From NCBI GenBank assembly GCA_037447655.1, contig JBBHKE010000159.1, positions 674,974 to 738,973 of the forward strand: a stretch of 64,000 nt of DNA. Reading direction: 5' to 3'. The translations under genes and the position numbers were made by a program. The DNA is from Zygnema cylindricum (taxonomy: Eukaryota > Streptophyta > Zygnematophyceae > Zygnematales > Zygnemataceae). The notes under the pieces were generated by a model. The model was not told the DNA's origin. It saw nothing but the letters and a program-made list of their open reading frames with translations, and ran no database searches. This document shows, piece after piece, positions 23,563-64,000 of the stretch (within the stretch, counting starts at the first letter, position 1; each line of letters starts with the position of its first letter).

Positions 23563-23575
23563 AAAATAAGGGGAG
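23561..23575 (+). promoter_or_regulatory. Polypurine tract of copia copy at 18187
   Basis: AGAAAATAAGGGGAG lies directly before the 3' LTR and would prime plus-strand DNA synthesis. The same tract precedes the 3' LTR at 50769, and in reverse complement the old LTR ending at 14346. Confidence 0.85.
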
Positions 23576-38276: not shown

Positions 38277-38277
38277 T

Positions 38278-43518: not shown

Positions 43519-44283
43519 GTGGGCAGAGGGGATGATCAAGATCGGGATCTTACAGGTGTCAGTGAGGAAGAAAGCGGGAGGCAGGAAGTAGTGGCCCAAA
43601 AGGAAAAGTCACAGGTGCCCGAGGAAGCAATCCCCTTTGCTTCCGCTTTAAACATAGAGCAGTTTCTCAAGGGAATGATGCCTACGCCTGTCATAGTTGA
43701 GACTCCTCCGAAATAGCCAGAGAAGCAACCATCTCCCCCACCTCCACCGGTCTTTTCTCCCGAGAACTTCCCTACGTTGTCAAAAGCCGCCAAGGCTAGG
43801 GCTACGGGAAAGGATGAACGACATACCGGAGCTCCTCAATCCCGCAGAAAGGTTTTGGCACATAAGGAAACGGTTCTTGGCCAACTTCCCGAAGTGGTAC
43901 GGTATACCAAGTCTAAAGCTCCAATAGTGGAGACATACGTGGATCGTGAAATCTTGACAGATCCTAGTCGGCCTGGTCGTAAGGAAATTTTAGCTTTGCA
44001 CAATATCCATGAGTTAAAGGTAAAGAAGGAGCTTGTGCAGTTGGTTGCTAGGAGCGATCGAGCCCGGATCATTCGCCCCATGGGAGGTGAAGTTGAAATC
44101 CTAAGCAGTTCGTCTAAGAGCGGTTCTTCAACATTTGTGCGGGAGCAACACGGGAGGCCAGCGACTTCGCGTCAACAGCCCACCCTATCTCGAGACACTG
44201 CCACTAGTAAACAATTTAAAGGCCAGGTAACTTCTCGGGCCCGGGCAGGTGAAGAAACCAGCAAGCGAAAATTGCCAAAAACC
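43519..44283 (+). pseudogene. Gypsy gag N-terminal region, first piece
   Basis: Homologous to 39587-40320: QDRDLTG, SQVPEEA, FLKGMMPTPV, then TDPSRPGRKEILALH and ELKVKKELVQ. One in-frame TAG (43714). It is cut at 44283 by a solo copia LTR (TSD AAACC). 37 further bases of gag follow that LTR before the next insertion. Confidence 0.75.
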
Positions 44284-45330
44284 TGTAGAAATTAATGGTT
44301 TTTAAGTATTTTCTAGGTCTGAATAGAAATAAAGAAGCCGAGGCAGTCTACCTCTAACTTCTCTCTCCAACTCTCAAACTTTTCGCAGTCACTGAGAAAT
44401 TGGAGAGGAAGCTAGAGCCATGGCTACTTAGGCTATCCTGAGGTTTACTGGAAATTTATATTAGTCAAGGGATTAATTACTAAAAGGTATGTGCCGGCGA
44501 CAGGATTTGATCCTGGTACCTGCCGGCCGTCAAAGAGTAGATAGCCGGTAGCCTTAGCCGTTAAGTCTAGAAGTAGTCTTACATAGTTTATACTACGATA
44601 ATGATTTAAACATGTACACGTAGGATAAATCATTTAACTATAACTGTTAACGGGATACATAGATATGGTAGTGTAAAAGTACGAATCGCGGTAAGGATAA
44701 CAAATCAATACCGCGCATTGATTTCGTAAGCGAAACAAATACCGCGCATGTATTTATTACGGCTACGATCAAATGCGAGTTTAATCGGACGGCCGAAATT
44801 ACCGCCGAGATCGCGGAAGGAGAATTCGGCGGTTTATGGGCATCGCCACATCGGATGACACGTGGCGATGTAACATTGGAGCGCGGCATCTCTGAGGATT
44901 AAATGAGCGAATCCGGATATTCCACGTGTGGACATTAAGGGCATGTCGTACAATGTCCGTACATAAAGTACACCGGTAGCTGTACTTTTGCATACCAAAC
45001 TGTATTCTGATTGGTTCCGTACATCAGTAGATAGAGTCTGTGAGAGGGATAGGACTTAGAAAAATTAGAAGATAGGACCCTCTCTCCCAGAGAGCTTTTG
45101 TACAAAAGGTCAACTTTGACCCGTTATAACTTACTGCTCAGGGTAGCAAATTCAGAGATTCTTTTTGCTATCAACTCAGGGGAGTCTTGCCTTCACAGGG
45201 GTGAGGGTGGTCAGAGTATTTGTCTGCCACAGTGGCAGTTATTTTTGCTTAAACACAAAGGGTCAGGATTATCCTAGAGGCTTCTTGGAAGCTGTTCACT
45301 GTGAGGACTTATAGAGGTCTCAGAGTTTCA
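44284..45330 (+). repeat. Solo copia LTR, TSD AAACC
   Basis: 1,047 bases, TGTAGAAATTAATGG to CAGAGTTTCA, flanked by AAACC (44279-44283 and 45331-45335). It is a product of LTR-LTR recombination. It lies 37 bases upstream of the complete copia element, and gag sequence is continuous across both. Confidence 0.93.
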
Positions 45331-45367
45331 AAACCAAGATAGATTTCCGGTTCAACCATAGGGATAG

Positions 45368-46417
45368 TGTAGAAATTAATGGTTTTAAAGTATTTTCTAG
45401 GTCTGAATAGAAATAAAGAAGTCGAGGCAGTCTACCTCTAACTTCTCTCTCCAAACTCTCAAACTTGTCGCAGTCACTGAGAAATTGGAGAGGAAGCTAG
45501 AGCCATGGCTACCTAGGCTATCCTGAGGTTTACGGGAAATTTATACTAGTTAGGGGATTATTTACTAAAAAGCATTTATGCCGGCCACAGGATTTGATCC
45601 TTGTACCTGCCGGCCGCAGATAGTAGATAGCCGGTATCCTTAGCCGTTAAGTCTAGAAGTAGTCTTACACAATATGTAGTACGATAATTAATTAAACATT
45701 AATTTGTATGATAAATCATTTAACTATAATAGTTAACGGGATACATAGATCTGGTATGTAAAAGTACCATTTGCAGTACGGAAAAGAAATCAATACCGCG
45801 CATAGATATTGTAAGCGAAACAAATACAGCGCATGTATTTATTACGGCTACGATCAAATACGAGTTTAATCGGACGGCCGGAATTAGCGTCCGGATCGCG
45901 GAAGAAGAATTCGGCGGTTTGTGGGCATCGCCACATCGGATGACACGTGGCGATGTTACATTGGAGCGCGGCATCTCCGAGGATTAAATGAGCGAATCCG
46001 GATATTCCACGTGTGGACATTAAGGGCATGTTGTACAATGTCCGTACATAAAGTACACCGACAGCTGTACTTTTGCGTACGGAACTATAATCTGATTAGT
46101 TCCGTACATCAGTAGATAGAGTCTGTGAGAGAGATAGGACTTAGAAAATATTAGAAGATAGGACACTCTCTCCCAGAGAGCTTCTATACAAAAGGTCAAC
46201 TTTGACCCTCCATAACTTACTGCTCAGAGGAGCAAATTCAGAAATTCTTTTTGCTATCGACTTAGGGGAGTCTTCTCTTAACATGGGTGAAGTTGGTCAG
46301 AGTTTTTGTCTGTCAGGGTTGCAGTTATTGTTGCTAAAACACAAAGGGGTCAGGGTTATCCTAGAGGCTTTTTACAAGCTGTCCACTCTGAGGACTTATG
46401 GAGGTCTCAGAGTTTCA
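45368..46417 (+). repeat. 5' LTR of copia copy at 45368
   Basis: 1,050 bases ending GAGTTTCA. ATG at 46398 near its end opens the gag frame (MEVSEFQV, then MGPPSRVP), so translation could begin inside the LTR. Confidence 0.93.
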
Positions 46418-49400
46418 GGTTATGGGCCCACCCTCTAGGGTACCAATCTTTAATAGAACTGGCTTCATATACTGGGAAAGTATGATGATAGGAGCTTCAT
46501 GCGAAAAAAGGTTTAGGGGGATAGTGAGTGGACGGTTGGGGTGCCCATCAAGTCTTCGAATTCCTCCAGGGTTTGGAGGAAGCACATTCACCAAGAAAGA
46601 GGATCCACCTTCAACGGAAGAAACAAAAGAAGGAGAGGTGGTGGACAAAGGAAAGGAGAAGGAGGGAACCACACCAATAGCAACTGGTTCGGCATTCATA
46701 TCACCTATTCCGAGGAACGAGGAGAATGATACTGAAACATGGGACTTCAACAAATATGGCGGCAAAGAACTTCATCCTACGCCATCTCACTCAAGGACTT
46801 GCATGTCCTCATTTGCAGGTAGAGAGGGCATCCGATCTTTGGATGGCTCTCATAGAGATGTACCGAAGTGGTACGATTCAGCAACAACAGTTCGCTGATC
46901 AGAAAGTTAAGGAGTATGTATACAAAGGGGAAAATATGTTGGATTTTTGCAATGAGCTTGCTACACTCTTCCTGGAGCTAGAGAAGTGCGGGAAAAGATT
47001 TTAGTGAAAAAGAAAAAGTTAACTGTTTACTAATGAAGTTACCTGATGAATTCGAGAACATAGTCAACCGTGTGCAGGACTTGCCGGACTCAAGGTGGAT
47101 ATGGAACTCAGTGGTAGGGATGATTCTCGTTCGAGAGAATACGATTGAGATCCGAAGGGGAGGAAAGAGTGGCCAAGCCTTGGCAACAGCGACCGATTGG
47201 AGGAACAAGGATTCCCGGAAACCAGTCGGAAACTATGGGGGTAGGGAGCAGAAAAAACAGGTTGGCGAGTTCGAACCAAGGGCTCCCAAAGGTTTATGTC
47301 ATTTTTGTAAGAAACCGGGGCACTATATGGCAGAGTGCACCAAGCTAACCGAGCTTCGGTTAAAGGAGGGGCAGACCGGTGGTACCCCGAGAGGAAAGAA
47401 AAAGGCCCTTGTCACACAGGTACTTGAGGCGGAATCCGAGGACGAGGACGATGAGCTCCTTTTGGATGAGGAGTTGGAGGCGAAAAATGAGGTTGAAATT
47501 CCACGAAGGCAGAAATGTGCTTACGGTGGTTTGAAAGGTGAAGCAAGCCGGATTATAGATTCACGTGCCTCCATGCACATGTGTAAGGATAGGCACCTGT
47601 TCACTAAGATAAGAAAGATTCCCACCGTAGAGATAGAGTACAGGGATGGGAGAATAGTCACCACTACTCTTGTAGGATCGGTAGATCTGAAAGTGTTAGT
47701 AGAAGGAAAGACATCCATATTAACATTCTCCGATGTATTGTTTATTCCGGAGCTGAACAAAAACCTTATTTCTACATCTATATTAGATGATAATGGTTTT
47801 TTTACTAGCATTAGGGAAGGAGTCTGTACTGCTAGTTTTGAGAAGGATGTCTATTTCATTGCTAAGAAAGGTAGCCATGGGATGTTTAGGCTGATCTTAA
47901 GTAATGAAACAAAGAAACTTTATTATGCAGGTGTTCATGATATTATGATGTGGCATAAAAGGCTTGGGCATGTGAATCTAGATAAGTTAAGAGAGATGAA
48001 AAAGATGGGAGTGGTGGAAGGGATTCAGTTCAGTGAGAGTGATGATATAAGTGATTGTAGTGGATGTGCTCAAGGTAAAGCACACTGATTACCCTTTCCT
48101 AAAACAACCACTTATAAGGGAGAAAAAATTCTAGATCTAGTACACACAGATATTTGGGGCCCGGCTAGAGTGCCCTCACCGGGGGGGAAGAGATTTATGA
48201 TGACTATAACTGATGATTGGTCTCGGTATTCTCGGGTGTATTTTTTGAAAAACAAGTCAGAAGCTCAGGTTTGTTTTAGACAATATAAAGCATGGAGCGA
48301 AAAACTCCATGAAACTCCAATCAAGAGAGTAAGGAGTGACAATGGTGGAGAGTATACTTCTAATCAGTTTGAGGATTTTCGGAGGGAAGATGGGGTCCAA
48401 CCCCAAAAGACAGTTCCAGAAAATCCGGAACAGAATGGGGTAGCTGAAAGGTTAAATAGAACACTAAGTGAAAGTGCTAGAAGTATGTTGTCGGATAAGA
48501 AGATAGGAAAAATGTTTTGGGCAGAAGCAATGAACTGTGCTAATTACCTCAAAAATAGAGTTCTTACTTCAGCTATAAAAGATCAAACACCTTATGAGAG
48601 ATGGACAGGCCGGAAACCAGACTTATCTCACTTAAAGGTTTTCGGCAGTCAAGTATTCAGTCTAGATACATATCTGTCTAATTGGAAGCTAGATCCTAAA
48701 GGAAAACCGGGATACCTATTAGGATATGATAAGGATGTTAAAGGATATAGAGTTTATGATCTAAAAAGAGAAGATATAATCTTAGTAAAGCATCTAGTAG
48801 TTATGGATGAATGAAAGTCTGTGGATCTTTTCAAATATACAAAGTCAGTAAAAATCAGATTTGAGTCAGAAAATTCCGATGACTTTGAGCTCCCTAACTA
48901 TCCGGGTTTTAGAGACGATCACATTCTTGCAGGAACAAATCAGACTGAAAAGGACTCGGCTGTGGAAACTCTAGTAACAACTCTACCTGAAGCAGAAGAC
49001 GTGGTGGAAATTGATTCGGAATCAAGGGATAGGGGAGAAGTCGAGTTTGTTCGAAAGAATCCACGAGAACCATCTATTTCAGCCTCGGATTTAGAGGGGG
49101 GGAGGAGAAGTAGCAAAAGACTGCAAGAAAAACAGGTCAATAACAAGGTAACTAAACTATCTCATCAAGATGAACCTCAAACTTATGAAGAGGCGTTGAC
49201 TTGTCCAGAAAGAAACCGGTGGAAGACAGCCATCAATGAGGAGATGGCCTCAATCATGGCAGCCGATACTTGGGAGCTGGTGGACTGTCCACCTAACCGA
49301 AAACCAATCGGTTGTAAGTGGGTTTTCAAATTAAAACTGAACCCTGATAACACAATCGAGCGCTACAAGGCCCGGTTAGTGGCAAAGGGATTTACACAAA

Positions 49401-50754
49401 AATAGGGAATTGACTACGAGGAAACCTTTGCCCCGGTGGTCATATTTCCCTCCGTCCGCATACTTCTCAGCTTGGCAGCAGCGGAAGATATGGAAGTGCA
49501 CCAGATGGACATCAAGACAGCCTTTTTGCATGGAGAATTGGAAGAGGAGATCTTCATGCGACAACCCAAAGGGGTTTGTGGAGGAAGGAGAGGAGAGTAA
49601 GGTATGCCGGCTGATTAAATCTCTTTATGGTTTGAAACAGGCGCCTCGACAGTGGAATAAGAAGCTTGATGAGTTTCTTACCGGTTTGGGATATATCTAG
49701 ATCAGCTCAGATCACTCAATCTATGTTTTAGAAGATGAGGAAGGTTTTATATTTATTGCAATTTATGTTGATGATTTGCTTGTTTTAAGTAAATCAATGG
49801 AAAAAATTAATAAACTGAAAACCAATCTTAAGGGGAGATTTGAAATGAAGGATATGGGGGAAGCAAAATATATTTTGGGAATTCAAGTAGAAAGAGACAG
49901 AAAATGAAAAATTATAAGATTGACTCAAAATGAAGCAATAGGGAACATGCTTGAAAAATTTCAAATGGATAAAGCTAATAGTTGTACAACTCCAATGGAG
50001 TTGAAGAAGGGAAGTGAGGGGAGTGAGGAAGGAGTCGTAGTCTTAGACAAGGAATTATCTCCTGAAGAACAAAAGTTAATGCAAACTATTCCTTACAGGC
50101 AAGTAGTGGGAAGCCTAATCTATTTTATGAATTGTATCCGGCCGAATTTAACTGCAGTTGTATGAGTGTTGAGTAGAAGTCTAAATGCTCCCACTAAGAG
50201 CGATTGGGAGGCGACTAAGAGAGTCCTTAGATATTTGATAGGAATTAGGGATCTATGGTTGCATTTGGGTGGGGAAAATACTGATATCACTACTTCGAGT
50301 GATGCCACTTATGGTGATGCTCCGATGAGCAGATGCACTTCTGGATATGTATTATATGTGGGTGATGGGGCTTGCTGTTGGAGTAGCAAACAGCAAAAGG
50401 TTATTGCTCAGTCCACCATGGAGGCTGAGTATATGGCCTCTTGCTCTGCTGTAAAAGAATTGATGTGGGTCAAGTCTTTGCTTGGTGAGCTTGGTCATCT
50501 TAAGAGTGGTGTGCAGAAATATTTTGTGATAATCAGGCAGCAATTGCTATTTCTGCCAATCGTAAACATCATTTTAAAGCCAAACACATGGACATTAGAC
50601 TCAGCTTTGTTAGAGAGAAAGTAGAAAATATAATAATCAGTTTAGAGTACCGACCAGATAGTGAGATGGTAGCAGATATGATGACCAAACTTGTGCCTTC
50701 CCCTAAGCTAATTTTCTGCAGGGAGAAGTGTTGTCTGAAATTAAAGATTGACTA
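46398..50754 (+). pseudogene. Copia gag-pol with several stops and frameshifts
   Basis: Same domains as the copy at 19228: gag, CCHC (CHFCKKPGHYMAEC, 47299-47340), protease (here DSRA in place of DSGA), integrase, RT with YVDD (about 49766), RNase H with STMEAEYMASC. Defects: a one-base insertion near 46750, a frame change near 46980, TGA near 48086 and 48812, TAG at 49403, an extra base near 49571, TAG near 49698, TGA near 49906 and 50163, and a missing base near 50518. The protease change of the catalytic-triad glycine (DSGA to DSRA) would itself inactivate it. Confidence 0.93.
46418..46430 (+). promoter_or_regulatory. Primer-binding site, half-tRNA type
   Basis: GGTTATGGGCCCA, identical to 19224-19236, complementary to the initiator tRNA-Met anticodon stem-loop. 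It lies within the gag reading frame that starts at 46398. Confidence 0.85.
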
Positions 50755-50768
50755 GAAAATAAGGGGAG
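50755..50768 (+). promoter_or_regulatory. Polypurine tract of copia copy at 45368
   Basis: GAAAATAAGGGGAG immediately precedes the 3' LTR, as in the copy at 18187. Confidence 0.85.
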
Positions 50769-51821
50769 TGTAGAAATGAATGGTTTTAAGTATTTTCTAG
50801 GTCTGAATAGAAATAAAGAAGCTGAGGCAGTCTACCTCTAACTTCTCTCTCCAAACTCTCAAACTTGTCGCAGTCACTGAGAAATTGGAGAGGAAGCTAG
50901 AGCCATGGCTACCTAGGCTATCCTCAGGTTTACGGGAAATTTATACTAGTTAGGGGATTATTTACTAAAAAGCATTTATGCCGGCCCCAGGATTTGATCC
51001 TTGTACCTCCCGGCCGACAGATAGTAGATAGCCGGTATCCTTAGCCGTTAAGTCTAGAAGAAGTCTTACGCAATATGTAGTACGATAATTAATTAAACAT
51101 TAATTCGTAGGATAAATCATTTAACTATAATTGTTAACGGGATACATAGATCTAGTATGTAAAAGTACGATTTGCGGTACGGAAAAGAAATCAATACCGC
51201 GCATATATTTTGTAAGCGAAACAAATACCGCACATGTATTTATTACGGCTACAATCAAAAAATACGAGTTTAATCGGACAGCCGGAATTAGCGCCGAGAT
51301 CGCGCAAGAAGAATGCGGCGGTTTGTGGGCATCGCCACATCGGATGACACGTGGCGATGTTACATTGGAGCGCGGCATCTCCGAGGATTAAAGGAGCGAA
51401 TCCGGACATACCACGTGTCGACAGTTAGGCCATGTCGTACAGTGTCCGTACATAAAGTACACCGGCAGCTGTATTTTTGCGTACGGAACTATAATCTGAT
51501 TGGTTCTGTACATCAGTAGATAGAGTCTGTGAGAGAGATAGGACTTAGAAAAAATTAGAAGATAATACCCTCTCTCCCAGAGAGCTTCTGTACAAAAGGT
51601 CAACTTTGACCCTCCATAACTTGCTGCTTAGGGGAGCAAATTCAAAGATTCTTTTTGCTATTGACTCAGGGGAGTCTTGTCTTCACAGGGGTGAAGTTGG
51701 TCAGAGTTTTTGTCTGTCAGGGTGGCAATTATTTTTGCTGAAACACAAAGGGGTCAGGGTTATCCTAGAGGTTTCTTGGAAGCTGTCCACTCTGAGGACT
51801 TATGGAGGTCTCAGAGTTTCA
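50769..51821 (+). repeat. 3' LTR of copia copy at 45368
   Basis: 1,053 bases, TGTAGAAATGAATGG to GAGTTTCA, very similar to 45368-46417. Followed by TSD GATAG and the remainder of the gypsy gag. Confidence 0.93.
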
Positions 51822-51826
51822 GATAG

Positions 51827-53613
51827 CAAAGGCCGATTTGCTCCCCTAGTGAAAAAGGAGCCTTTCTTTCATTCCACCTCAGTTTCGCCAACCATTTCTC
51901 CCTCAGCGCCGGTGGTTCGCCCTTCCGAAGGATTTTGCGTTCGAGACCTACAAACCCCGAGGTACCCGGTTTAGGGATTGTTGATCTCTCGGGTGTGGTG
52001 AGCAGTACCCAGAAACTCGTGGATATCCTCCGATCGCAGAGTCACGCTATGGCGGGGGTCGGGCCCGTCACAATAGACTGGGATGCTCTGGAAGAAGAAA
52101 GGAAAAAAGCGTTGGAACAGGATCTGCTCCTAATACGGGAGGCTAAACGGAGATCAGGGTGAATCCTTAAAGGACAAGTATCTCCTTCTCTTAGAACAGG
52201 TACCTCGATAAAAGGACAACATCCAGCACAGGCTGTTTTTCTGAGACAAGTGTTGGTACTGAAGATGAAGAAGATGCAGCAGTAGTCATCGTAGAACAAA
52301 TCAAGAGAGGAAGCTTCCACAAATACCGATGGCTGAACAGCAACTTTGACAGACTATAACTTTCAGAAAAACGCTCCAAACGTCCTGAAAATTTTCCACA
52401 ATGTAGATAACATACAAAGAAACACTCACACAAAATTTCAATCAATTCCGCTCACAAATCTGTGAGATATGTAGAAATGAAATTACATAAAACTGAGTGT
52501 ACAGTTTTCATATCATTTGTTCCTAAAAATCAAATTCACTAAGTCCTACTTTTATACACCGAAACTACACTAAGCTGTACGGAGGCATTCCAGCCGTACA
52601 TCTAACATTCTATCACACATATTTACACCGAAGTTCAGACAACGTAAAGTGATAATGATCTAGTCACGCCTCGTCACTATTTGTTGGCGGCGGCTGTCAG
52701 CGGTCCGATTAGAGGATTTGGCACCGTAGAATTGACTTCACGAAGTCCAGTGGTCCTGCCGAATTTCCGTACGTCCACGGAGGACATACTCACGCATTCT
52801 CCCAAGTGACGACACGTGTCCCAAGTGTGAATGAACCGTGAACTCCCAACTTCACTGTCACACTAATTTCGGTAAGTACTGAACCGAACTCAACCAAAAA
52901 TAGCTTAAGTCCTGAACAGCTCTCTCTCACAGCTGAGGCATAAAGAGGACTAAAGCTTTCTAAAAACAACACAGGCCACCCCTTGTGCTATGCGAGATCT
53001 CAGGGCATCACCGGAACCCGGACAAAAATCTCCTCTTCCGCGGGAAAGGGAGGACACAACAGGGGCTAACAAAAAGGGGTTGGGTGTAGATCCACCGAGT
53101 AATCAGGTAGACGCGTCCACAGAGCTTCCTACATTTGTCTTGGTGGCGGGATCTTCTACAGTGGAGGCCGTGGTACAACTACAACCCGACAAGAGACTCC
53201 ACATTTCCCTCGGACTGACCACTCCTCCTCCATCACCACCTCACGCATCCTCTCTTTCCCCTCCCTTCTCCTTAGCTGCAGCAGTTTGTGGGTATCCAGA
53301 TCCGCCTGTTCTACCTTACAAATACACCGTTTACTCACCTCCTCACTGGCGATCCCCATCCTTCAGTGCCGGAACTCCCTTGCCCAAAGATTCTGAAAGG
53401 CGGTATAGGAGACAGACACCCTTCAGGAGACAGACACACTTGCCTCTGAGCTTCCAGCCGTCTCCTTCTACATCGCCAGCCATCTCCCGGAGGCCTCGAC
53501 CTTGCCTGCACATTCCATCGGTGGAGATAGTGTTAAGGGGAGAACAATCTTCTTCGAATATAGAGGAGCAGGCGATCTACCATCTTCTTCAAGAGCAGGA
53601 CCTTCCTCCGTAG
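51827..53613 (+). pseudogene. Gypsy gag N-terminal region, later pieces
   Basis: 51827-52228 continues the gag after the copia insertion (DSKGRFAPLVKKEP, then a frame change near 51935 and DWDALEEERKKALEQDLLLI). A solo LTR then splits it (52234-52971), and it resumes at 52977 with LRASPEPGQKSPLPREREDT, PTFVLVAGSSTVEAVVQLQP and a Pro/Ser-rich tail. The parallel intact stretch in the other copy is 40388-41177. The product is the probable N-terminal gag extension. Confidence 0.72.
52234..52971 (+). repeat. Solo LTR (TGTT...AACA family), TSD CAGGC
   Basis: 738 bases starting TGTTTTTCTGAGACAAG and ending CTAAAAACAACA; CAGGC duplicated at 52229-52233 and 52972-52976. Same family as 32079-32829. 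It is the third nested insertion in this gypsy copy. Confidence 0.92.
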
Positions 53614-53775
53614 GAGAAGGAATCACTGTTACTACAACCGCACTTCATATTGGAGGAGGGACCAGTTCGGATCCTAAGATTTAGGACCCCAGAGCAGTCT
53701 CATCGGCTCAGTTTGTAAGTCCCACCGGACAGGCCTCACCACGGTTCATCAGTACTACAGAGGAGGAAAAAAAAA

Positions 53776-55040
53776 TGGGGGACGTTCGGATCTTCACTGG
53801 GGATAACTACGGGATCGCTTTTTCTAATTTCGAACTAATGTGGAAATCTTTGACATAATCTGAAATTAACAAATACAGGGGTGGAGCCATCCCACCGGAT
53901 TTCGAAACAACTCTTTTTCCAATGATGGTCAATTATTTAGCCGGGGGGGCGTTGGCCGATTATAAGGAGCGTCTACCCTTGTTGATGGCTTCAGTATAAA
54001 ATTATCAAATCCAGACTTGGACGCCATAGTTTTTCAAGCAGCCGCTGACTTGGCTGTCGCCGCCGCAGCTCCTATCACAGCCACATTCACTATGGACATG
54101 AAGCTGTAGGCCCAAGGTGGGGCCTATGTCAATCATCTCCAGGCCGTCCCAGTCGCCGAGGCAGCCACTGGGATGATTGCCAATCCAACTCCCTGCACGA
54201 CCCTCTTGGACGCCGGAGACTCCTTTATACACAAAAGGAACGAAATAACAATCAAGGAGTTCACCGACTTCCTATGTTTGAAGAATGAAACCCCTCAGAC
54301 TCTTTTCAACCGACTCTCCAGCCTCTATGAGAAGACCAAATTGTCCACCATCGATACGCCAGCAATGGCCACCAAATATTATGTGGCTGTTCGAAATTCA
54401 TTCGGGCCTACCGGGCAGGCAGCTCTACACAATTCGAGTTCCAATTAGGCTATACACAACAGGAATCCTACGGCGCTAGAAATTTCATTGGCGGCAATGA
54501 AGTTATATGACCATTTTGTCAACAACGATGCTAGAGAAAAGGCTGTTACCGGAAAAGCAATAGCCAACTTTGCAAGTTTTGCGGGGGAATCTTTTCTTAG
54601 CAAGAGGAACAAACTGAACTTCAAGCTTTGCTGAAGCTCAAAGGAAAACAGGAAGTTGAAACTAGACCCGAACCCGCTATGGGGGCTGATGAAAAATTTT
54701 ATCTTTACAATTGCCTGAACTGCAACCAAATTGGTCACGAGTGCAAAAGATGCCCCAGGAAACTCAACCCAGGACTCTCGATGAAGCAAAAAGAGTTTGA
54801 AAAGGAATGTGCAAAAAGAACCCGAAGGCAGCAAGAACACAAGCACGGAGGCGGAGGAGGGGACCGCCCACCGGTCATTAGAGACACCTATAAACGTACT
54901 CCCCACTCTCAGATGACTAAGATGTCCCAATCTCAGTTGAGACAAATCCGACTTCCTAAATTTGATGATGCTCAGATCTTACAACTGAGGGATCGAAATG
55001 TGAGGCTTGTGGTTTCATAGGGCACAAAGAACGGCAATGT
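53776..55040 (+). pseudogene. Gypsy gag: capsid and two CCHC zinc knuckles
   Basis: MGDVRIFTGDNYGIAFSNFE opens a capsid-like domain (TGDNY...F...W.S), and the capsid C-terminal region includes FLCLKNETPQTLFNRLSSLY. Two nucleocapsid knuckles follow: CLNCNQIGHECKRC (about 54718-54759) and CEACGFIGHKERQC (54999-55040), both CX2CX4HX4C. Stops at 53856 (TAA), 53997 (TAA), 54107 (TAG) and 54446 (TAG), and frame changes (for example between the knuckles), break it. It would coat the RNA and form the particle in an intact copy. Confidence 0.8.
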
Positions 55041-56130
55041 TTCCGGAAGTTCGGGGTCCCAAAAGACATGCTGCAACACGCACTCTTCACAGGCGAAGGG
55101 GAAACAACAGTTAATCCTCCACCACTGCAACTTTTATATCCATGGGAACGTCGATCTCCTGATGAACCTAGACACAGTACGTCGACATAGGAACATATCA
55201 TCCAACAACAGAGCACTCAATTAGCCGCCTTGGCAGTAGAACTGGCTCCTCTCCGCATGGGATCAAATGCTCGCACCCCACGACCTCTGACGCCAGCTCA
55301 CAAACTGCAGAAACAAAAACATGAACTCCTGCAAAAGCTAGCAGAACTGGAACAACAAACCACGGTGGGTGGTGATGATGATGACCTAATGGGATGGGAT
55401 ATAGAGCCTCCAAAGGCTCATCATGCCCGGACATTTCTATCCGGAGCTTAGAACGTTGGAGTGAGGACAGTCGTAGGCAACTGCGCGCTACAATGTCCTC
55501 TTAGAGAAAGGACAAAGAGCCGATGGAACGAAGGGACCACAACCGCAAAGCCACCGATCCTTTATCCTTCAAACCCAGAGCGGTCCTCTTGAACAGTGAC
55601 ATTGGGCTGGGCCTAAAGCCGACTCATCCGCCTCCCCCCGCCCCAAAGAAACTTCCCCCTGGTTTTGAAGATTTTAAAAAACCCAAGCCGGAAAAAGATC
55701 CTTCAACCAGTGAGACAGATCAGGAATGGTTCAACCGATACTTGGCTGAAAGACCAACAACAGATCCGCCGATGACACCTCGAACACGAAATTTTGACAA
55801 AGAAAGTGAGGAAGCAGAGGGGGGGGAACAAGAGAAATCAGAAGACGACGATTCGCCCATTTTATCGCCGAAAGCTCTCCCTCCTTCGTCTAAGCCGGCA
55901 GTAATGCTAGTACGTCACTTGATGCTCTACGCTTTGACTCACGTCAAAACGCTATCCTCCTCCCAAAATTTGCCCAAACAAACACTCATATAGACATAGG
56001 GGAAGAGATTCACACCAAGAGGGAAATGGTCGCGTTGGCAGAACCACCCAAGACAAGCTTCATGGCCGCAGAACCAACAACTTCTATGGCGGATAGAGAT
56101 TATAAGGCCCTGTAAGTGGCTCTTATTCTT
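55041..56130 (+). pseudogene. Gag-protease linker, Pro- and acid-rich
   Basis: Open pieces at 55230-55451 (LTPAHKLQKQKHELLQKLAEL, a probable coiled coil) and 55523-55993 (PTHPPPPAPKKLPPGFEDFK, then an acidic stretch EEAEGGEQEKSEDDD). No enzyme domain is seen. It joins the knuckles to the protease in the original polyprotein. Confidence 0.55.
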
Positions 56131-56460
56131 AACAAGACATGAAATTTTAAACTCAATGGATACGACGGGTATCAAGATGCCGTGGTAGACACCGGAGCTC
56201 TCCCAAATCTCATCACCACATCAGCATTACAACAAATGCCTGAGGAATTCCGGCCGAAAATTAGCCCAAGTGACATCTGCCTGAGTACAATTAGCAGTGG
56301 GAGCGAACGAGTATACGGCATCATCAAGGCAATGGAAATCGAATTTGCTGATGACGCGGGCCAATACGTACTAATTTAACTCCCGTTCCTAGTGGTGGAA
56401 GGTAAGCAGTTTGACATTTTGTTGGGAATGGCTACTTCGACCAGGTTGAACATGAATTGA
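56131..56460 (+). pseudogene. Gypsy aspartic protease
   Basis: AVVDTGALPNLITTSAL carries the catalytic Asp-Thr-Gly (about 56188-56196), and FDILLGMATS carries the conserved hydrophobic-hydrophobic-Gly near the C-terminus. The flap region is around VYGIIKAMEIEF. It would cleave the polyprotein. A TAA at 56377 (in YVLI*LPFLVVEG) interrupts the frame. Confidence 0.82.
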
Positions 56461-56839
56461 GCTGTGGAAGGAACAGATTACAGTTTCAGACCCGGAGGAC
56501 CCAAAGGGCACCAAAGTGGTTGTCCCCTTAGATTTATGGAACCGAGGGAAAACAACTATTCCGGTATCTAGAAGTTATCCCGTATATTCTGTATCAACAC
56601 TTTCGGAGTTGTTCAGAGACTCCACAGATATTGTTGACTCCATATAGCAACTCCCTATTTCCAAGCGGTGGGAAAGTGAGTATCATAATAAATTGGTACA
56701 GATGGCCACACTTCGGCGAGAAATGGACAAAAGCTTTGCCACCATACCGCGCGGAACAACAAAGGTTCTCCGTTCGAACCTGTGACAGTTTCTCAAAACG
56801 GGAAGGACTGCAATCGACAAGTTGTGTTAATGGAGATCC

Positions 56840-57810
56840 GCCCTCGGGACTCAAGATTTTATCGTTTTTTTATGATATCAGTTCCGACTTCGAAGCCGTC
56901 TTGAAAGTTGGATACAGAGTAGAAACATACTCGGCAGTCGAGATTGACCCGGACGCCCGTGCAGTAAGCGAGTATAGACTACAGCAGCTTCACCAACTTT
57001 ACCCACAGCAACTCCCGGTATCTCCCATTTCCAACTCTCACCGCAAGCTTCCCAATAATATTGACAACATCACCAATTCATATTTGGAAAAGCGGGGACG
57101 AGCAGATCTTGTGGTCGATGGATGGCCATGCGAAGGGTATTCGTTAGCAAGACAGGGCAGGGGACACTAGGATGTCTGTAGCAGAACATTCTTCCAGATG
57201 AGGCAACTGATAACATTCTTCCAGATGAGGCAACTGATAAAAGAGATACAAAAATGTCAAGACACGCCAGTGGGGTACGTCTTGGAAAATGTTCACCCCA
57301 CAGATGATAAAAGAAAAGAGGTGGTCAACAGCTGGAACCAAGTAACTCAGGTTCTGGGGACTCCCATAGTTTTTGACGCAGCTCAGATTGGATCAAGAGC
57401 CCACAAAGTTCTTGCTTATTGGACCAATTTGGTTCCTATTCCTATCTTCCAACAGCTGTTGAAAAAAAAGGTACCGGATCCTCGCATCACAGTTCAGCAG
57501 ATTCTCGGACAAGGGCCAATGGCCACCCCGTGACAAAAGCCAACTGAGCACCCTTCTTATGTTGCAACCAACCCGGGAATCCACGGAAAGCCCTACCAAC
57601 CCTGGTATCATTCCCCAACAGCCATGCTTACCGGAAAGGGGCACCAGCAATGATATTTGAAAGAACAGCCGCTACGTGGACAACACGAAGTATTGAAGAA
57701 CGCGAACAGGCAATGGGATTTCAACAAAGAACCACAGTAGCACCAAGAGTCTTAGTCTCAAAAAGGTGCAGTTTAATCGGGCAAAGTATGTATTTGAATG
57801 CAATTTCATG
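56840..57810 (+). pseudogene. Cytosine-5 DNA methyltransferase domain inside the gypsy pol
   Basis: Motifs of C5 DNA methyltransferases appear in order. I: KILSFFYDISSDFEAVLKVG with the following acidic EID of the S-adenosylmethionine site (56852-56950). IV: DGWPCEGYS with the catalytic Pro-Cys (about 57118-57141). VI: VLENVHP with the Glu-Asn-Val (about 57279). VIII: QIGSRAHKVLAYW (about 57385). IX: EEREQAMGF (57695-57721). X: LIGQSMYLNAISWVL (about 57773-57815). Motifs I to VIII share one frame apart from a TAG at 57168; IX and X lie in another frame after a TGA at 57531. It sits between protease and RT, as a captured domain of the element. The PC-E-G form of motif IV leaves the subfamily open (DNMT1/bacterial types have PCQG, DNMT3 PCN). 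This copy is inactive as it stands. Confidence 0.85.
57186..57239 (+). repeat. 27-bp in-frame tandem duplication in the methyltransferase
   Basis: 57186-57212 and 57213-57239 are identical 27-base units encoding TFFQMRQLI twice. Being a multiple of three, it keeps the frame between motifs IV and VI. Confidence 0.95.
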
Positions 57811-57939
57811 GGTGTTGCAGCATTCTTAAGCATTCTCTAGCCAACAATCTCTAAAGTCACGGACAACATACCTTCAGGCTCCACAATTGTTGGCCATGCA
57901 AGCTACTCTGCAGCTTGAGAGGGAGAGAAAGGCAAGAAG

Positions 57940-59540
57940 AGAAAAATTCACAAAGTTACATTCAGATAACATATTGAACCCAGGATTTTCCTCAGTGGGG
58001 GGGAGAGAAAGCTTAGAAACATGAAATTGTCAGTAGCAACGTTTTTACAGCCGAGCAAGGGACAGATCCACATGAAGAGCTTAAATTCGACATCTCCCTC
58101 TGGGTCGACCGCCGGAAGCATGGGCTGTAGTGGAACTCGGAAAGATGGACTAAAAGCTAAGGGAACAGTTAGATGCACATCAGAAGGCTCGACTCTCGAA
58201 GCAGTTAGAGGAGAACGGGCAAGTGTTCTCTTAGTTTGACACAGATATAGGAATCTATAAGGGGACATCTTTTTGAATAGATCAGACCGATGAGACATCA
58301 ACGATTTGGCAGAAACAGTATCCTCTCAGCTTCAAGGAGAAGGAGTTCATCCCCGCAAAGGTGTAGACTTTGGTGGTTGCAAGGCTTGTGCAGGAGAGAA
58401 CCGGGCTACATGGGTTTACCTCTCCAACAATACTCCCTCCAAAGTAAGACTCCTCTGAGAAAACTGTAGATTTACGGATGTGTGAAAACTATCGGATGCT
58501 CAACACGACAACTGTTTCCGATCGCTATCCAATGCCTACCCCGGAAGAGATCTTCGATTCTCTTGCTAGGGCCACCATTTATTCCACGTTGGATATGAAG
58601 AATGGATTCCACCAGATTGCAATGGAGCCAAAGCACCGAGAGCAGACGGCTTTTTGGGCTGGATCAAGGTTGTATGAGTGGCTGTACATGCCATTTGGTC
58701 TCAAAAATGCAGCTGCATAATTCCAACGGGCTATGGACGAGGCCCTCCGGGGAATTGATTGCACACGGTGTTACATCGACGATGTAATCATTTTCTCCAA
58801 GACATTCAAAGAACACTTAGAGCATATACAGATTGTTCTCTAGGCTCTGCAAGCAGCGGGCTTGAAGTGCCATACGGGGAAGGGAATTTTTGGGGTGCAG
58901 AAAATCATTTATCTGGGTCATGAGGTGACTCCTGGGACAGTGGGTCCCCACATGGTTAAGGTGGCAGCTCTCGACACACTTCCACCCCCGCAGGACATTT
59001 CTGCCCTCCGCACCTTCTTAGATTTAGCCAACTATTACTGGAGGTTTATTCCCGAATTCAGCAGCCACGCCCAGCCATTAAATCAATTATTGCTAAAGGA
59101 CCAAGAGTGGCAATGAAGAGAAGAACAGCCGATCGCTTTTCGGTGCTTGAAAGACTCCCTCAAGCATTATCCAGTGCTCCGGATGCCCGATCACCAGCGA
59201 CCTTTCCTCCTTTTATACTGATTGGAGCAGGTTTGGATTGGGAGCAGTGTTGGCTCAATTCGACGATGCAGGGGCGGAATACGTAGTGGCTTACGCCAGC
59301 CAGAGCAATAACGCGGCCGAGGGGAATTACAGCAGTTACCACGGAGAATTACTCGCCAAGTATGGGCCATCCACCACTTCAGGCCTTACCTCTATGGAGT
59401 ACACTTCACCCTTATTACGGATCACTAGCCCCTCACATGGATAATGGAGAACAGTAAGTTGATTGGCAAGCTGTTCAGATGGGTTCTCATTTTGCAGGAA
59501 TACGATTTCAGCATCATCCACCGAGCAGGGGAGATTCATG
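57940..59540 (+). pseudogene. Gypsy reverse transcriptase and RNase H
   Basis: RT landmarks are NYRMLNTTTVSDRYPMPTPE (58484), YSTLDMKNGFHQIAM, YMPFGLKNAA and the catalytic YIDD (CYIDDVIIF, about 58768-58794). GLKCHTGKGIF, YLGHEVTPGTV and the connection LDLANYYWRFIPEFSSH follow. RNase H follows with FLLYTDWSRFGLGAVLAQFD and VVAYASQSNNAAEGNYSSYHGELLA. Interruptions include TAG at 58364, TAA at 58718, TAG at 58841 and TGA at 59114. It would copy the element's RNA into DNA. Confidence 0.9.
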
Positions 59541-59603
59541 GGAATGCAAACGAACTAAACAAGAATCCAGATCGTTCTACTAGAGACTCTACAGGGGCTC
59601 AGC

Positions 59604-61020
59604 ATGATGAAGACCGGGAGCTCAGTTTGGGACTTATTCGGGCTTCCTCCGCCTTCATTTGGCTGCCTCAGACTTAAGGAGAACTATCAACTTTTGCGTC
59701 GGACGTCGAAGGGTCATGCTCCCATAGGATTTGGCCACAAGGATATTTGGAATGACACTGATTCCCTCCAGTCCATCCAAAATGGTTCCCCTCTTCCTCA
59801 CTTGGCCGCGAGTCATTTGTCCTGTGTTCAGACTTGGATGGCGGCGTATGAATGGGACCGAGGCATTCATCTCAAAAAATGGGCCGGTGGGACGAGGAAA
59901 GTGGTTCCTCCTCCGACAGATCGGGAAACCCTCATTGTTCAACTTCACCTGCAATGCGGGCACTTCAGACAAAAACGAACAACCTCACTGGTTACCAGGT
60001 CGTACTGGTGGCATGGGTTGCGGGCCCTGGTCAACCGTCTGGTGAAGACGTGCCCTTTTTGTGACCGAGTGAAAGCCGCCTTTGACAAAAAAGGTGGAAC
60101 AGAACTTCATTCTCTCCCTATTCGGGGGATGTTTTACAGATGGTCAGTGGATCTGCCGGGACCACTTCCAACCAGCCGCAGGGGAAACCATTTTGTTCTG
60201 GTAATGATTGAACACTTCTCTAAATGGATCGAACTAGTGGTCATTCCCCCAAAAGAGTCAAAAGCAATCGCTGAAGCATTCTTGCACAGAGTGTTGTCCC
60301 AATTTGGAGCACAGGCCGAAGTTCTCACAGATCAGGGGTCCGAGTTTGCTAGAGAATTTCCTAACCTTCTGGAAAAGTGCCTCATTGACCACCGGTTGAC
60401 CAGCCAAGACCACCCCCAAGCTGATGGTTTGGCTGAGAGGTGTGTACAGACAGTGAAGCGGTCACTACGGAAAATATGTCGTTGAAGAGGATTTGGGGGA
60501 ATGGGACAGACGGGTGCCTTGGATTGCCATAGGATACAGGATCAGTAGGCAAGCCTCCCTCCACTCCCATAGCCCTTACTTCATTCTCTTCGGCCGACAT
60601 CCCATCCTACCAGGAGCCGCCTCGGCTCAGGCGGTTGTGCGTCCAGAAATGGACAACCGGGGGACTGTCGAGAAACTGATTGCCGACCGGGCCAATGTAT
60701 TTCACCGGGAAATACCTCTGGGTATGGGCAATTTACAGGCTGCTCAGCACATGGATCAGCTTTGGTATTCCCAATGCCGGAGCAGAAATTATGTCCCACG
60801 GCAACGGCGATTCGTACTCGGGGATTTTGTGTATCGCATGCAACATAAGAAGGATACTTTGGACATTTTGACCGGACGAGTGATACTGAAAGTAGTGGAG
60901 GTCTCTAACAAAGGGGTTCTTACCTTGGAGGGGAAGGATGGCCACAAAATTAAAGAAAATCAGACCAATGTGGCTCCTTGCCACCTGCGAGGGGTAGAAG
61001 ACGAACCCACTTTCCACCTC
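59604..61020 (+). pseudogene. Gypsy integrase
   Basis: The HHCC zinc domain LQCGHFRQKRTTSLVTRSYW...CPFC lies at about 59938-60063. The catalytic core has D in WSVDLPGPLP (60145), D in LTDQGSEFAREF (about 60327) and E in GLAERCVQTVKR (about 60432). A one-base frameshift near 60485 separates the core from the C-terminal domain, which continues from 60493 (SLHSHSPYFILFGRHPILPG, then VLGDFVYRMQHKKDTLD). It would insert the cDNA. A PHD finger is fused downstream in the same frame. Confidence 0.9.
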
Positions 61021-61203
61021 ACCTATTTTGCAGAACCACCCTCATGTTCCTCTGCTTGTAATGGGTCCTCTGTATCCAACCTTCTGCTAATGTGCAAACA
61101 CTGTCACCGGGGGTGGCATGACGGCTGCCTACCATTGAATTGGGAGCCCCGCTCTCAACCCGCAAATCCGTGGTTTTGTTGGGACTGCGAATTTGGCAGC
61201 TAA
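61021..61203 (+). CDS. PHD finger at the integrase C-terminus
   Basis: Cysteines and histidine follow the PHD Cys4-His-Cys3 pattern: C...C at 61045 and 61057 (spacing three), CKHC at 61093-61104, then HX2C (WHDGC, 61114-61128) and CWDC at 61177-61188, with the usual Trp two residues before the last pair (WFCWDC). The frame is continuous with the integrase C-terminal domain from 60493 and stops at TAA 61201. PHD fingers usually read the H3 tail, so the domain could steer integration or tether the complex to chromatin. No stop interrupts this exon-like stretch. The first Cys pair has three residues between cysteines where two is standard. Confidence 0.75.
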   Translation, partial: TYFAEPPSCSSACNGSSVSNLLLMCKHCHRGWHDGCLPLNWEPRSQPANPWFCWDCEFGS

Positions 61204-61462
61204 TTTGTCTAATCCTCTTAGTCATACGGGACTCAAAAGAGGGGAGGAATCCGAGGGGGGGTATGGGGTACTTTTACTTTTACTCTCAATTCCTCATTAT
61301 TACCTATGCATATCCTTGGGGGGGAAAGACAGAGAAGGGCATGGTCATGGGTCTGGGGAATCATCAACATTTGGGGTGGATGGTAGGTCTCTCATGCACA
61401 CCTCATAGGACATCTAACCTCGACCTCACGGTCCCAAGGCACGCTCAACACCTCCCGACGTG
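61204..61462 (+). other. Gypsy 3' untranslated region, no 3' LTR
   Basis: G-rich stretches (about 61236-61276 and 61317-61340) could include the polypurine tract, but the TGTCAAG start of an LTR does not follow. I see no gene. Confidence 0.5.
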
Positions 61463-62036
61463 ATTTCTAATAAAGTTCTATGAGGTGAGGGAGCAGGCAG
61501 ATGTTGTCGCACATGTCGGAAGTTTTTGACATTTTTTGTGCGCAAGTACCAAAAAAAAACCCACTGCACGTTTCTAGCCTGTGCGTGACTTTTTTCCGTG
61601 CTTTTTTTTCCGTACAAGGGCCGTGGAGGGGGTCTCGACCAACGGACACCATTTCGCAAAAGCGAAGTCCATGAAAGCGCCTCTCTCGCTCTCCCTCTCC
61701 CACTAACGTGTTTATCTCGCAATTTTTGCAATGAAACACATTAATAATGGAATCAAATGAAAGATCTCTAAAAACGATTTCTTTTTACTATCTTAAGGCG
61801 TATTTTGATGGCAAGTAGAGTGAGGAAAGACTAAAAAACAAAATCGGAAAACCACGGTGGATATTTTTAGAATTTGTGACGTCGACGCTGTCATAATTTG
61901 AGCGTGGCGTCAAAATGACACAACCTTAACATCTACAATGTCAGAAGTAGTTAAACATCTACAACTGTCACTATTTTGTAAACATCATCAATTGTCGCTA
62001 GTTTAATGGTTGTCTACAACCGTCACAAATTACCAC
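61463..62036. mobile_element. Fragment related to the Harbinger-like element at 33010
   Basis: Colinear with about 33266-33890: AGTTTTTGACATTTTTTGTG, CAAAAAAAAACCCACTGCACG, GGGGGTCTCGACC, and the TGACGTCGACGCTGTCATAA block. Terminal repeats are not complete here. It separates the gypsy copy from the next LTR. Confidence 0.7.
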
Positions 62037-62557
62037 TGTTAGGATTTGGTACTGAGAACTCTTTTAGCGACTAGTGATTCTCGTAGCTAAAGTAGCGACG
62101 ACCAGCGACGAAGTAGTTTCGTCGCTGGATATTTTGAAGTGACGTAGAAATTAAATGTTCATTTCGTTTCACGTATGTTTGAATAGTACTATAGAAGTGA
62201 CGTGGAAATTGCATGGTAATTTCGGTTCACGTAAGTTTAAGTCGTAACGTGTGATTCAAGTTGGTTCGCGGTTGACTTTTCTAGTCGTACCGTGTTGTTC
62301 AAGTCGTTTCAACTTGTCTGTTGTTTATTTCACCATGTTGACTCTTACGCGTTTCTAGTCATATACCTATATATATTTGTTGAGACTTCATGGTAGTATT
62401 ATCCTATTGGAGGCGTAGCTTATTAAAGAGGCGTAGAAAGGTAAGAAGTAAAACGAAAGAAGAAAATGAGTTGTATTTACATTGTGCTTAATATATTGAA
62501 TGTGTTTTAGGGGAACACCATTGTTGTGTGTATATTTTATTTGGTTTTTAATCTTCA
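62037..62557 (+). repeat. LTR of a second copia-type element
   Basis: TGTTAGGATTTGG to TTAATCTTCA (521 bases) with a canonical primer site two bases downstream. The LTR has no resemblance to the 1-kb copia LTRs. Only the 5' end of the element is in the window. Confidence 0.75.
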
Positions 62558-62559
62558 AT

Positions 62560-62570
62560 TGGTATCAGAG
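62560..62570 (+). promoter_or_regulatory. Primer-binding site, initiator tRNA-Met 3'-end type
   Basis: TGGTATCAGAG is the usual plant LTR-retrotransposon primer site, complementary to the 3' end of initiator tRNA-Met. It contrasts with the half-tRNA site of the main copia family. Confidence 0.88.
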
Positions 62571-62595
62571 GGGGTTACTGGCAACACTTGTCGGT

Positions 62596-62688
62596 ATGGC
62601 GGAGAAAGGGAAATCCTCGGCGAAACCTAGTGGAGGAGCTAGTGGGGGAGTTAGTGGAGGAGGAGTTACAAGGACACAATATGATAAG
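62596..62688 (+). pseudogene. gag start of the second copia-type element, interrupted
   Basis: MAEKGKSSAKPSGGASGGVS, a Gly/Ser-rich start, then TRTQYDK, cut at 62688 by the LTR of another copia copy. The rest of the gene would lie beyond the window, on the far side of that insertion. Confidence 0.6.
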
Positions 62689-64000
62689 TGTAGAAACTAA
62701 TGGTTTTTTAAGTATTTTCTAGGTCTGAAAAGAAATATAGAAGCCGAGGCAGTCTGTCTCTAACTTCTCTCTCCAACTCTCAAACTTGTCGCAGTCACTG
62801 AGAAATTGGAGAGGAAGCTAGAGCCATGGCTACCTAGGCTATCCTGAGGTTTACAGGAAATTTATATTAGTTCGGGTTTATTTATTTAAAAGGTGTGTGC
62901 CGGCGGCAAGAATTGATCCTTGTACCTACCGGCCGGCAGATAGGAAATAGCCGGTAGCCTTAGCCGTTAAGTCTAGGAGTCATGATACGTAGTATATGGT
63001 TTGATAGTTATTTAAATATGTATACGTACGATTATTCATTTAACTATAATAGATTACGGGATACATAGATCCGGTAATATATAAAGTACGGATTATGGTA
63101 CGGACTATAAACAAATACCGCACATGTAATTATTACGGCTACGATTAAATTAGATTCTAATCGGACGGCCGCAATTAGCGCCGAGATCGCGGAGGAAGTT
63201 TTCGGCGGTTTGTGGCCATCGCCACATCGGATGACGCGTGGCGAAATTTTGTTGGATCGTGGAATCCCCGGAGATTATGGCATCGAATCCGGATATGACA
63301 TGTGTCGACATTTAGACCTTGTCATACAATGTCCGTACCTAAAGTACACCGGCAGCTGTACTTTTGCGTACGGAACTCAATTCTGATTGGTTCCGTACAT
63401 CAGTAGATAGAGTCTGTGAGAGAGATAGGACTTAGAAAAATTAGGAGGTAGGACCCTCTCTCCCAGAGAGCTTCTGTACAAAAGGTCAACTTTGACCCTC
63501 CATAACTTACTACTCAAGAGAGCAAATTCAGAGATTCTTTTTGCTATCGACTCAGGGGAGTCTTCCCTTCACAAGGGTGAAGTTGGTTAGAGTTTTTGTC
63601 TGCCAGGGTGGCAGTTATTTTTGCTTAAACACAAAGGGGTCAGGATTATCCTAGAGGCTTCTTGGAAGCTGTCCACTCTGAGGACTTATGGAGGTCTCAG
63701 AGTTTCAGGTTATGGGCCCACCCTCTAGGGTACCAATCTTTAATGGAACTGGCTTCATATACTGGGAAAGTATGATGATAGGAGCTCTATGCGAAAAAAG
63801 GTTTTGGGGGATAGTGAGTGGACGATTGGGGCGTCCATCAAGTTTTGGAATTCCTCTAGGGTTTTAAGGAAGCAGATTCACCAAGAAAGAGGATTCACCT
63901 TCAACGGACGAAACAAAGGAAGGAGAGGTGGTGGACAAAGGAAAGGAGAAGGAGGCGACCACACCAATAGCAACTGGTTTAGCATTCATGTCACCTATTC
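62689..64000 (+). mobile_element. Main-family copia element, 5' part only
   Basis: 5' LTR 62689-63707 (TGTAGAAACTAATGG to GAGTTTCA), primer site 63708-63720, then gag to the end of the window. It is inserted in the gag of the second copia type. It has fewer bases in the LTR than its relatives (a shortened block near 63080). Confidence 0.93.
63688..64000 (+). pseudogene. Copia gag, partial, with an early stop
   Basis: Opens with ATG at 63688 inside the LTR (MEVSEFQV) and continues MGPPSRVPIFNGTGFIYWES as in the other copies. A TAA near 63865 (GF*GSRF) stands where the copy at 19228 has GGA. The frame then runs to the window edge (ATTPIATGLAFMSPI). Confidence 0.88.

Follow-up and report, generated by a model that had tools for sequence, protein, structure and literature searches.

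Sequence comparisons confirmed that positions 56823-57826 of the window (the whole stretch of 64,000 nucleotides of Zygnema cylindricum DNA that was analysed) correspond to a predicted DNMT3-type cytosine-5 DNA methyltransferase (MTase), located between the protease and the reverse transcriptase (RT) of a Ty3/Gypsy LTR element. This copy is dead, with a stop and a frameshift inside the MTase, a lost motif I, nested insertions and no 3' LTR. The family to which it belongs is abundant in the host genome, is under selection and has recent-looking insertions. Its anatomy is LTR - Gag - protease - (in-frame UAG CAA) - MTase - RT - RNase H - integrase - PHD finger - LTR.

Anatomy of the element and of its methyltransferase

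The features of the element are as follows; L003 is the related contig CADCWO010000201.1.

42264-43450 (+): probable 5' LTR, end approximate, beginning with TGTCAAGCTCG (similarity to post-PHD sequence in four copies)
43517-44283 (+): leader and first part of the Gag region, split by Copia insertions (~68% DNA identity to a second, truncated copy at 39585-40219)
44284-51822 (+): insertions into the element, a solo Copia LTR (44284-45330) and a full-length Copia element (45368-51822) (window self-comparison)
51823-55450 (+): remainder of Gag, many broken frames (matches to 40400-41077 and to repeat copies at 32079 and 41178)
about 52190-52972 (+): ~0.74-kb repeat inserted in the Gag remainder (window comparisons)
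54712-54753 (+): first CCHC zinc knuckle of Gag (read off the translation)
54999-55040 (+): second CCHC zinc knuckle of Gag (read off the translation; weak zf-CCHC-type matches, E 0.019-0.3)
56143-56376 (+): aspartic protease, DTGA (weak PF13650 match, E 0.069; same place in relatives)
56645-56653 (+): in-frame stop TAG CAA CTC between protease and MTase (comparison of copies; TAG CAA TTC in others)
56823-57826 (+): MTase, DNMT3-type cytosine-5, degraded (TAG at 57168; frame change between 57530 and 57548)
58448-59113 (+): RT, with stops (PF00078, E 8.4e-10)
59123-59620 (+): RNase H, with frame changes (PF17919, PF17917)
59742-60473 (+): integrase zinc finger and core (PF17921, PF00665; 50% to L003)
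60499-61050 (+): integrase C-terminal region (41% to L003 over 60499-61200)
61054-61188 (+): PHD finger, end of Pol (PF00628, E 9.4e-5, 22.8 bits, below the 24-bit cut-off; in register with the L003 PHD finger)
61449-62688 (+): another LTR element, inserted (its repeat 61449-62033 equals 33249-33834)

The RT - RNase H - integrase order and the Gypsy-type integrase (H2C2, rve) bear out the initial annotation of a Ty3/Gypsy element, and the protease and the RT are where it had placed them, at 56143-56376 (weak Pfam match) and from 58448 on, respectively. Gag harbours CCHC knuckles and an aspartic protease is present upstream, the protease match being weak in the window; that of L003 reaches 20.5 bits with PF13650, under the 24.3-bit cut-off. 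The whole segment 56838-61200 is colinear with the MTase-RT-RNase H-integrase-PHD order of L003, with 33-82% identity per piece.

The segment 42264-43450 was identified as the probable 5' LTR by its likeness to the sequence downstream of the PHD region in the genome copies L019, L026, L027 and L031 (82.7-86.6% identity over 0.76-1.26 kb). For the 3' LTR, comparison of 61190-62700 with the LTR region of the family gave no match. The direct repeats 50784-51822 and 62706-63708 were considered as LTRs of the MTase element and rejected, as self-comparison identified them as Copia LTRs. Five frame changes between the MTase and the PHD finger and several stops, together with the nested insertions, show that the copy is decayed, as had been proposed.

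The window contains further material of the same and other families. Two additional LTRs of the MTase element family, at 37412 and 38277, are found with a Gag region in the segment 37412-41177; the one at 38277 is 91-95% identical to the LTRs of copies L020, L022, L023 and L025, which form a second subfamily. A Copia element at 18187-24613 has long open frames, and its LTRs (18187-19223 and 23576-24613) are 98% identical, which points to a recent insertion; relatives of it are present at 45368-51822 and from 62689 on. The ~0.74-kb repeat occurs at 52190-52972, 41178-41586 (partial) and 32079-32829, with 79-97% identity between copies, i.e. at different points in the Gag region of two MTase-family copies and at one site elsewhere. 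A primer-binding-like TTGGTATCAGAG at 62559-62570 follows the LTR belonging to the element that is inserted at the 3' end.

Pfam scans of the raw single-frame pieces of the window did not match the MTase; to see the domain, one has to read through the single TAG of the piece or go by way of relatives. Read across the TAG, 56823-57530 scored 22.5 bits with PF00145 (DNA_methylase), for a cut-off of 22. With the TAG at 57168 set to X, the same piece matched 30 distinct PDB sequences at E <= 1, of which 29 are DNMT3A, B or C (best E 7.2e-7) and the remaining one is talin, at chance level (E 0.77). A large protein search with 56823-57530 yielded three proteins, all from Marchantia (best E 8.4e-32) and all Gag-protease-MTase proteins by their sequences. 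The C-terminal part of the MTase (motif IX-X region) is in a separate frame, 57548-57826, which matched 59 of the 64 relatives gathered by then, with E values down to 4.9e-23 and 41-44% identity for the best four.

The identification of a cytosine-5 MTase of eukaryotic type thus holds, the matches being to DNMT3 proteins. The claim that the MTase motifs occur in the correct order was right for motifs IV (GWPCE), VI (ENV) and VIII (GSRAHKVL), followed by the IX-X region in the second frame, and motifs IV and VI, whose failure to align would have spoken against an MTase, are intact. Motif I is placed right but broken (FYDISSD, compared with F-x-G-I in 18/18 host copies), and the second Arg of motif VIII is gone. 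With these losses, the stop and the frameshift, the catalytic motifs of the window copy are not intact; most of the 18 other copies keep them. The window MTase also has a tandem 27-nt duplication at 57186-57239.

A profile built from nine relatives, with the window excluded (profile A2), matched DNMT3A in the PDB with an E value of 3.6e-25. The E values were 6.5e-13 for 4onj, labelled only DNA methyltransferase and probably a plant DRM, 1.7e-10 for DRM2-named chains and 4.6e-8 for HhaI; none of the 54 PDB chains listed for this profile is named DNMT1. The match to DNMT3A extends into the C-terminal part, and DRM2 matches part of the profile only. In agreement with the profile, DNMT3A, 3B or 3C, many of them complexed with 3L, are the best 50 matches listed for the predicted fold of the L003 MTase domain (mean pLDDT 73.4, less reliable at 233-271; best E 6.9e-15). 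DNMT3 is therefore the better match for both the window piece and the profile of the relatives, ahead of DRM, DNMT1, DNMT2 and bacterial enzymes. The motif order I-IV-VI-VIII-X is unpermuted, and a plant DRM (rearranged DNMT3), with motifs VI-X before I-IV, was rejected on this ground and because of the partial DRM2 match. On these comparisons we assign the predicted MTase to the DNMT3 class. PWWP or ADD domains were looked for in the Pfam scans made of the window and the relatives, with no match.

The methyltransferase family in the host genome

We searched the host assembly (352.8 Mb in 2689 contigs). With the MTase piece, the 150 candidates that were scored all matched (E 5.1e-40 or lower); as there were 1450 first-look candidates, the family count is a lower bound. 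With the integrase piece, 4453 candidates were found, and 152 matches came from the 150 scored. An MTase is present upstream in 26 of the 30 best integrase matches, window counted (25/29 without it), in line with the proposal that it is a fixed domain of the polyprotein shared by the other copies. In 21 of the 30, the MTase search had a match where one was expected, in one case at a distance of 4.3 kb instead of about 3. For the remaining nine, the 3.6 kb upstream were examined and an MTase was found in five; none was detected there in C2595, C996, C1701 and C1336. The RT region is present without MTase in C2595, which is near an N run, and in C996; the RT of C1701 and C1336 is displaced or cut, and the examined stretch may therefore end short of the place of the MTase. 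One integrase match, C961:70327-71058, is listed with an open frame of 5743 residues, probably an N run since the neighbouring locus L035 holds 1191 N.

Twenty copies picked for long open frames were examined at 10 kb each. The MTase, RT, RNase H and integrase are in this order in 16 of them, and the search also brought up two copies with intact frames, in which a single open frame of 1520 or 1525 residues runs from before the MTase to the PHD finger. Given these single-frame copies and the conserved order, a host gene or an assembly artefact was rejected. Among 18 host copies, the motif IV Cys is kept in 18, the E-N of motif VI in 17 and the Arg pair of motif VIII in 18.

Comparison of the copies revealed a conserved stop. 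TAGCAATTC is found 155-198 nt before the MTase in 18 of the twenty 10-kb copies, and upstream of the MTase in 7/7 further near copies (L005-L011); in 15/20, TAG CAA TTC is in the same frame as the MTase. L003 has TAG CAA TCA, located between the MTase and the RT. The leaky stop context of plant viruses is UAG-CAR-YYA; the L003 stop fits it, and the host version departs from it at the last base. A search of the window for the exact context returned two matches (3.3 would be expected by chance), neither of them on the plus strand and one inside the Gag region of the element; the conserved stop came to light only by comparing copies. We infer that ribosomes may read through this UAG. Readthrough, if real, would place the MTase at the Gag level in L003 and at the Pol level in the host elements.

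We determined dN/dS ratios by the Nei-Gojobori method. For 18 stop-free MTase domains (153 pairs, of which 74 were dropped as they had no usable dS, saturated or zero), the median is 0.18, with values below 1 in 79/79 computable pairs; the ratios are 0.03 for the RT (44/45 pairs) and 0.09 for the integrase (10/10 pairs). The choice of copies with open frames may have lowered these values somewhat. The ratios nevertheless show that purifying selection acts on the predicted MTase of the family. LTR pairs were looked for in eight copies and found in seven, six at K2P distances of 0.019-0.058; the seventh, that of L031 (0.18 over 807 nt), may not be a true pair. No LTR pair was found for the two copies with the longest frames (0/2), nor a 5' LTR for L022. 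The family is thus flanked by LTR pairs in other copies, and by a probable 5' LTR in the window copy.

Relatives, domain orders and the PHD finger

L003, of 9285 nt, codes for two long open frames, Gag-protease-MTase (1162 residues, open at the contig start) and RT-RNase H-integrase-PHD (1047 residues). Its ends overlap by 127 nt, as expected for a circularly assembled repeat. Although a retrotransposon of eukaryotic type, it was assigned to a cyanobacterial metagenome bin, and P0070 and P0064 are likewise labelled bacteria; these labels probably reflect bin contamination.

A Marchantia MTase query matched 64 proteins among 7994 scored candidates, and the A2 profile query 224 proteins, of which 120 are listed. 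The named sources are Marchantia polymorpha, M. paleacea, Riccia sorocarpa, Calypogeia fissa, Sphagnum fallax, S. troendelagicum and the chlorophyte Monoraphidium neglectum, in addition to metagenomes; the liverwort relatives have 36-45% identity. All were gathered through the MTase, and related Gypsy elements devoid of it therefore fall outside the sample. In the 88 relatives with >= 85% coverage, the motif IV Cys is present in 85, the E-N of motif VI in 86 and both Arg residues of motif VIII in 81. Viral contigs gave no relatives: the P0031 query found nothing, two loci from the A2 scan were read as phage-like by their neighbouring frames, and an integrase-PHD scan for MTase-less relatives returned 41 pattern matches but no relative.

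Domains were located in 184 relatives with the L003 pieces. The MTase and the RT are in one protein in 27 of them, the MTase preceding the RT in 7 and following it in 20; in the latter, it is between the RNase H and the integrase wherever an integrase is present. In the MTase tree, the two domain orders correspond to the two sides of one branch (support 100/99, and 100% of 200 bootstrap trees) when P0063 is left out; with the long-branched P0063 included, support for this branch is 45/99. An earlier tree with other rows required two changes of domain order. The window MTase clusters with those of the host copies (100/97 or better); Marchantia and L003 are found on this side of the split. Rooting on phage enzymes is weak (0.26). 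The split of the two orders on this unrooted tree implies either two acquisitions of the MTase or one or more changes of its position inside a single lineage. Resolution is poor in the 28-row integrase tree, where 5/25 inner branches are starred; the window integrase is closest to that of L003 (53%).

A PHD finger is present in all 22 relatives with at least 260 residues behind the integrase. The best PDB matches of the L003 PHD finger include PHF12, CHD4, UHRF1, KDM5A and PHF21A, which are readers of the unmodified histone H3 tail. In the host copies the domain is divergent; its pattern is in one frame in 10 of the twenty 10-kb copies, and the window PHD finger is under the Pfam cut-off. Behind the PHD finger, the C-terminal ends of P0031 and P0063 have a stretch with DPW(C)-like and SPW/APP-like motifs reminiscent of adenine methyltransferases; that of P0031 has no Pfam match.

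Possible roles of the methyltransferase and known systems

The anatomy of the family and its presence in the host genome are direct observations. As to function, we consider it an even bet that the window element is a dead copy of a family with self-methylating, PHD-steered insertion. Occasional readthrough of the UAG would yield an MTase made together with Pol, which would be packaged in the particle, freed by the protease and carried along with the cDNA. It would then carry out de novo methylation of the new copy, and the integrase-borne PHD finger would recognize the histone H3 tail and direct insertion to silent chromatin. New copies would thereby begin in a chromatin state tolerated by the host. 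For the window element, the CpG observed/expected ratio is 0.64; four other copies have 0.61-0.64, the neighbouring Copia elements 0.66-0.68 and the whole window 0.85. There is no clear extra CpG loss in the MTase elements relative to the neighbouring Copia elements, and CpG depletion thus does not support self-methylation, which the initial annotation had raised as a possibility along with hiding in heterochromatin.

More tentatively, a deep Gypsy clade of green algae and bryophytes might carry a self-silencing kit in one polyprotein, with a de novo DNMT3 enzyme and an H3-reading PHD finger on the integrase. Its members would insert into silent chromatin and methylate themselves there, with the MTase dose set by the side of the UAG readthrough stop on which the MTase lies (before the stop and with Gag for L003, after the stop and with Pol for the host).

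An unlikely alternative is that the MTase acts in trans on host genes, rival elements or genome-wide host methylation rather than on the element's own new copies. The high copy number (150/150 scored candidates) represents a large potential dose, and the relevant passages of PMC5890265 describe an unusual CG methylation throughout the genome of Symbiodinium, a carrier of such elements. In contrast, Klebsormidium, with its Gypsy-Dnmt3, is described there as having a land-plant-like methylome, and an MTase made only by readthrough with Pol would favour the particle's own cDNA.

It is rather improbable that the domain no longer methylates DNA and is kept for nucleic-acid binding in the particle, Pol multimerization or RNA modification. 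Motif IV is GWECQ instead of GWPCQ in 10 of the 88 relatives, and motif I is variable among them, which speaks in its favour. However, conservation of the catalytic Cys, of E-N in motif VI and of the two motif VIII Arg residues extends to 81-86 of those 88 relatives and to 17-18 of 18 host copies, and the median dN/dS of the MTase is 0.18. That the MTase is a chance passenger, captured by one lineage and merely decaying with the elements, is very improbable: the window copy is itself dead, but the liverwort relatives at 36-45% identity, the conserved catalytic residues, the dN/dS values below 1 in all 79 computable pairs and the two copies whose whole MTase-Pol frame is open argue against it. 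Finally, a host DNMT3 gene or pseudogene beside, or inserted into, an unrelated Gypsy copy has nothing in its favour beyond the DNMT3 kinship and can practically be dismissed, as the MTase, RT, RNase H, integrase and PHD finger are joined in one open frame in two copies and the MTase-RT-RNase H-integrase order recurs in 16/20 copies and in L003.

If self-methylation were true, some selfish elements would profit from silencing themselves, which would reverse the usual arms-race picture of DNA methylation. The idea is testable, as the family is abundant, selected and recent-looking, and has relatives in Marchantia, for which methylomes and genetics are available. The relatives are widely spread, over liverworts, Sphagnum, a chlorophyte and metagenomes, which is also relevant to the question whether DNMT capture is recurrent, as published, or partly old and inherited.

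The initial annotation referred to a 2018 report by de Mendoza and colleagues of retrotransposon-encoded enzymes in dinoflagellates and charophytes. That report exists (PMC5890265), and its relevant passages describe DNMTs in LINE and DIRS elements of Symbiodinium and a Dnmt3 in a Gypsy element of Klebsormidium. The combination of Gypsy and DNMT3 has thus been known since 2018. The Ka/Ks of the Klebsormidium Gypsy Dnmt3 is given as < 0.2, and no activity of the enzyme was detected in yeast, a result that the authors call inconclusive. A passage of a 2025 report (PMC12344493) places some DNMT3s within retrotransposons of streptophytes and dinoflagellates, and the relevant passages of PMC6453930, PMC9516144 and PMC8594673 contain no retrotransposon-borne DNMT. 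By title, no paper listed in the literature searches, which covered few subscription journals, reports such elements in bryophytes or with a PHD finger. New here are the PHD finger behind the integrase, the conserved in-frame UAG-CAA stop before the MTase, the relatives in liverworts, Sphagnum, a chlorophyte and metagenomes, and the two MTase positions, which split cleanly on the MTase tree with P0063 left out.

The closest known system is KnitGypsy-Dnmt3 of Klebsormidium nitens (PMC5890265), which we compared by its published description rather than by sequence; no Klebsormidium is among the named relatives listed. According to the relevant passages, its Dnmt3-type MTase is encoded in the Pol frame of an LTR Gypsy element, has retained the key residues and is under purifying selection; the Ka/Ks of < 0.2 resembles the median dN/dS of 0.18 found here. 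It differs in that the words PHD and Marchantia are absent from the main text of that paper, and in that a figure legend equates its repeat structure with that of a DIRS element, whereas the copies described here have ordinary LTR pairs. SymbioDIRS-Dnmt3 and SymbioLINE-Dnmt of Symbiodinium are also retrotransposon-encoded cytosine MTases, and passages of the same report describe the Dnmt3 of SymbioDIRS as located in Pol, with two domain orders. Those elements, however, belong to the DIRS (tyrosine recombinase) and LINE types instead of being LTR Gypsy elements with an integrase (PMC5890265).

Compared with animal DNMT3A/3B and plant DNMT3, the MTase has the same unpermuted motif order, and its best profile and fold matches are DNMT3A/3B, but it is part of a retroelement polyprotein, with the PHD finger at the far end of Pol. 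Chromoviruses are Gypsy elements with an integrase chromodomain; they share with this family a chromatin-reader domain behind the integrase, the chromodomain being replaced here by a PHD finger and an MTase being added. With its DNMT3 enzyme and PHD finger, the proposed kit would be an element-built parallel of animal DNMT3, which combines a catalytic domain and a reader of H3K4me0.
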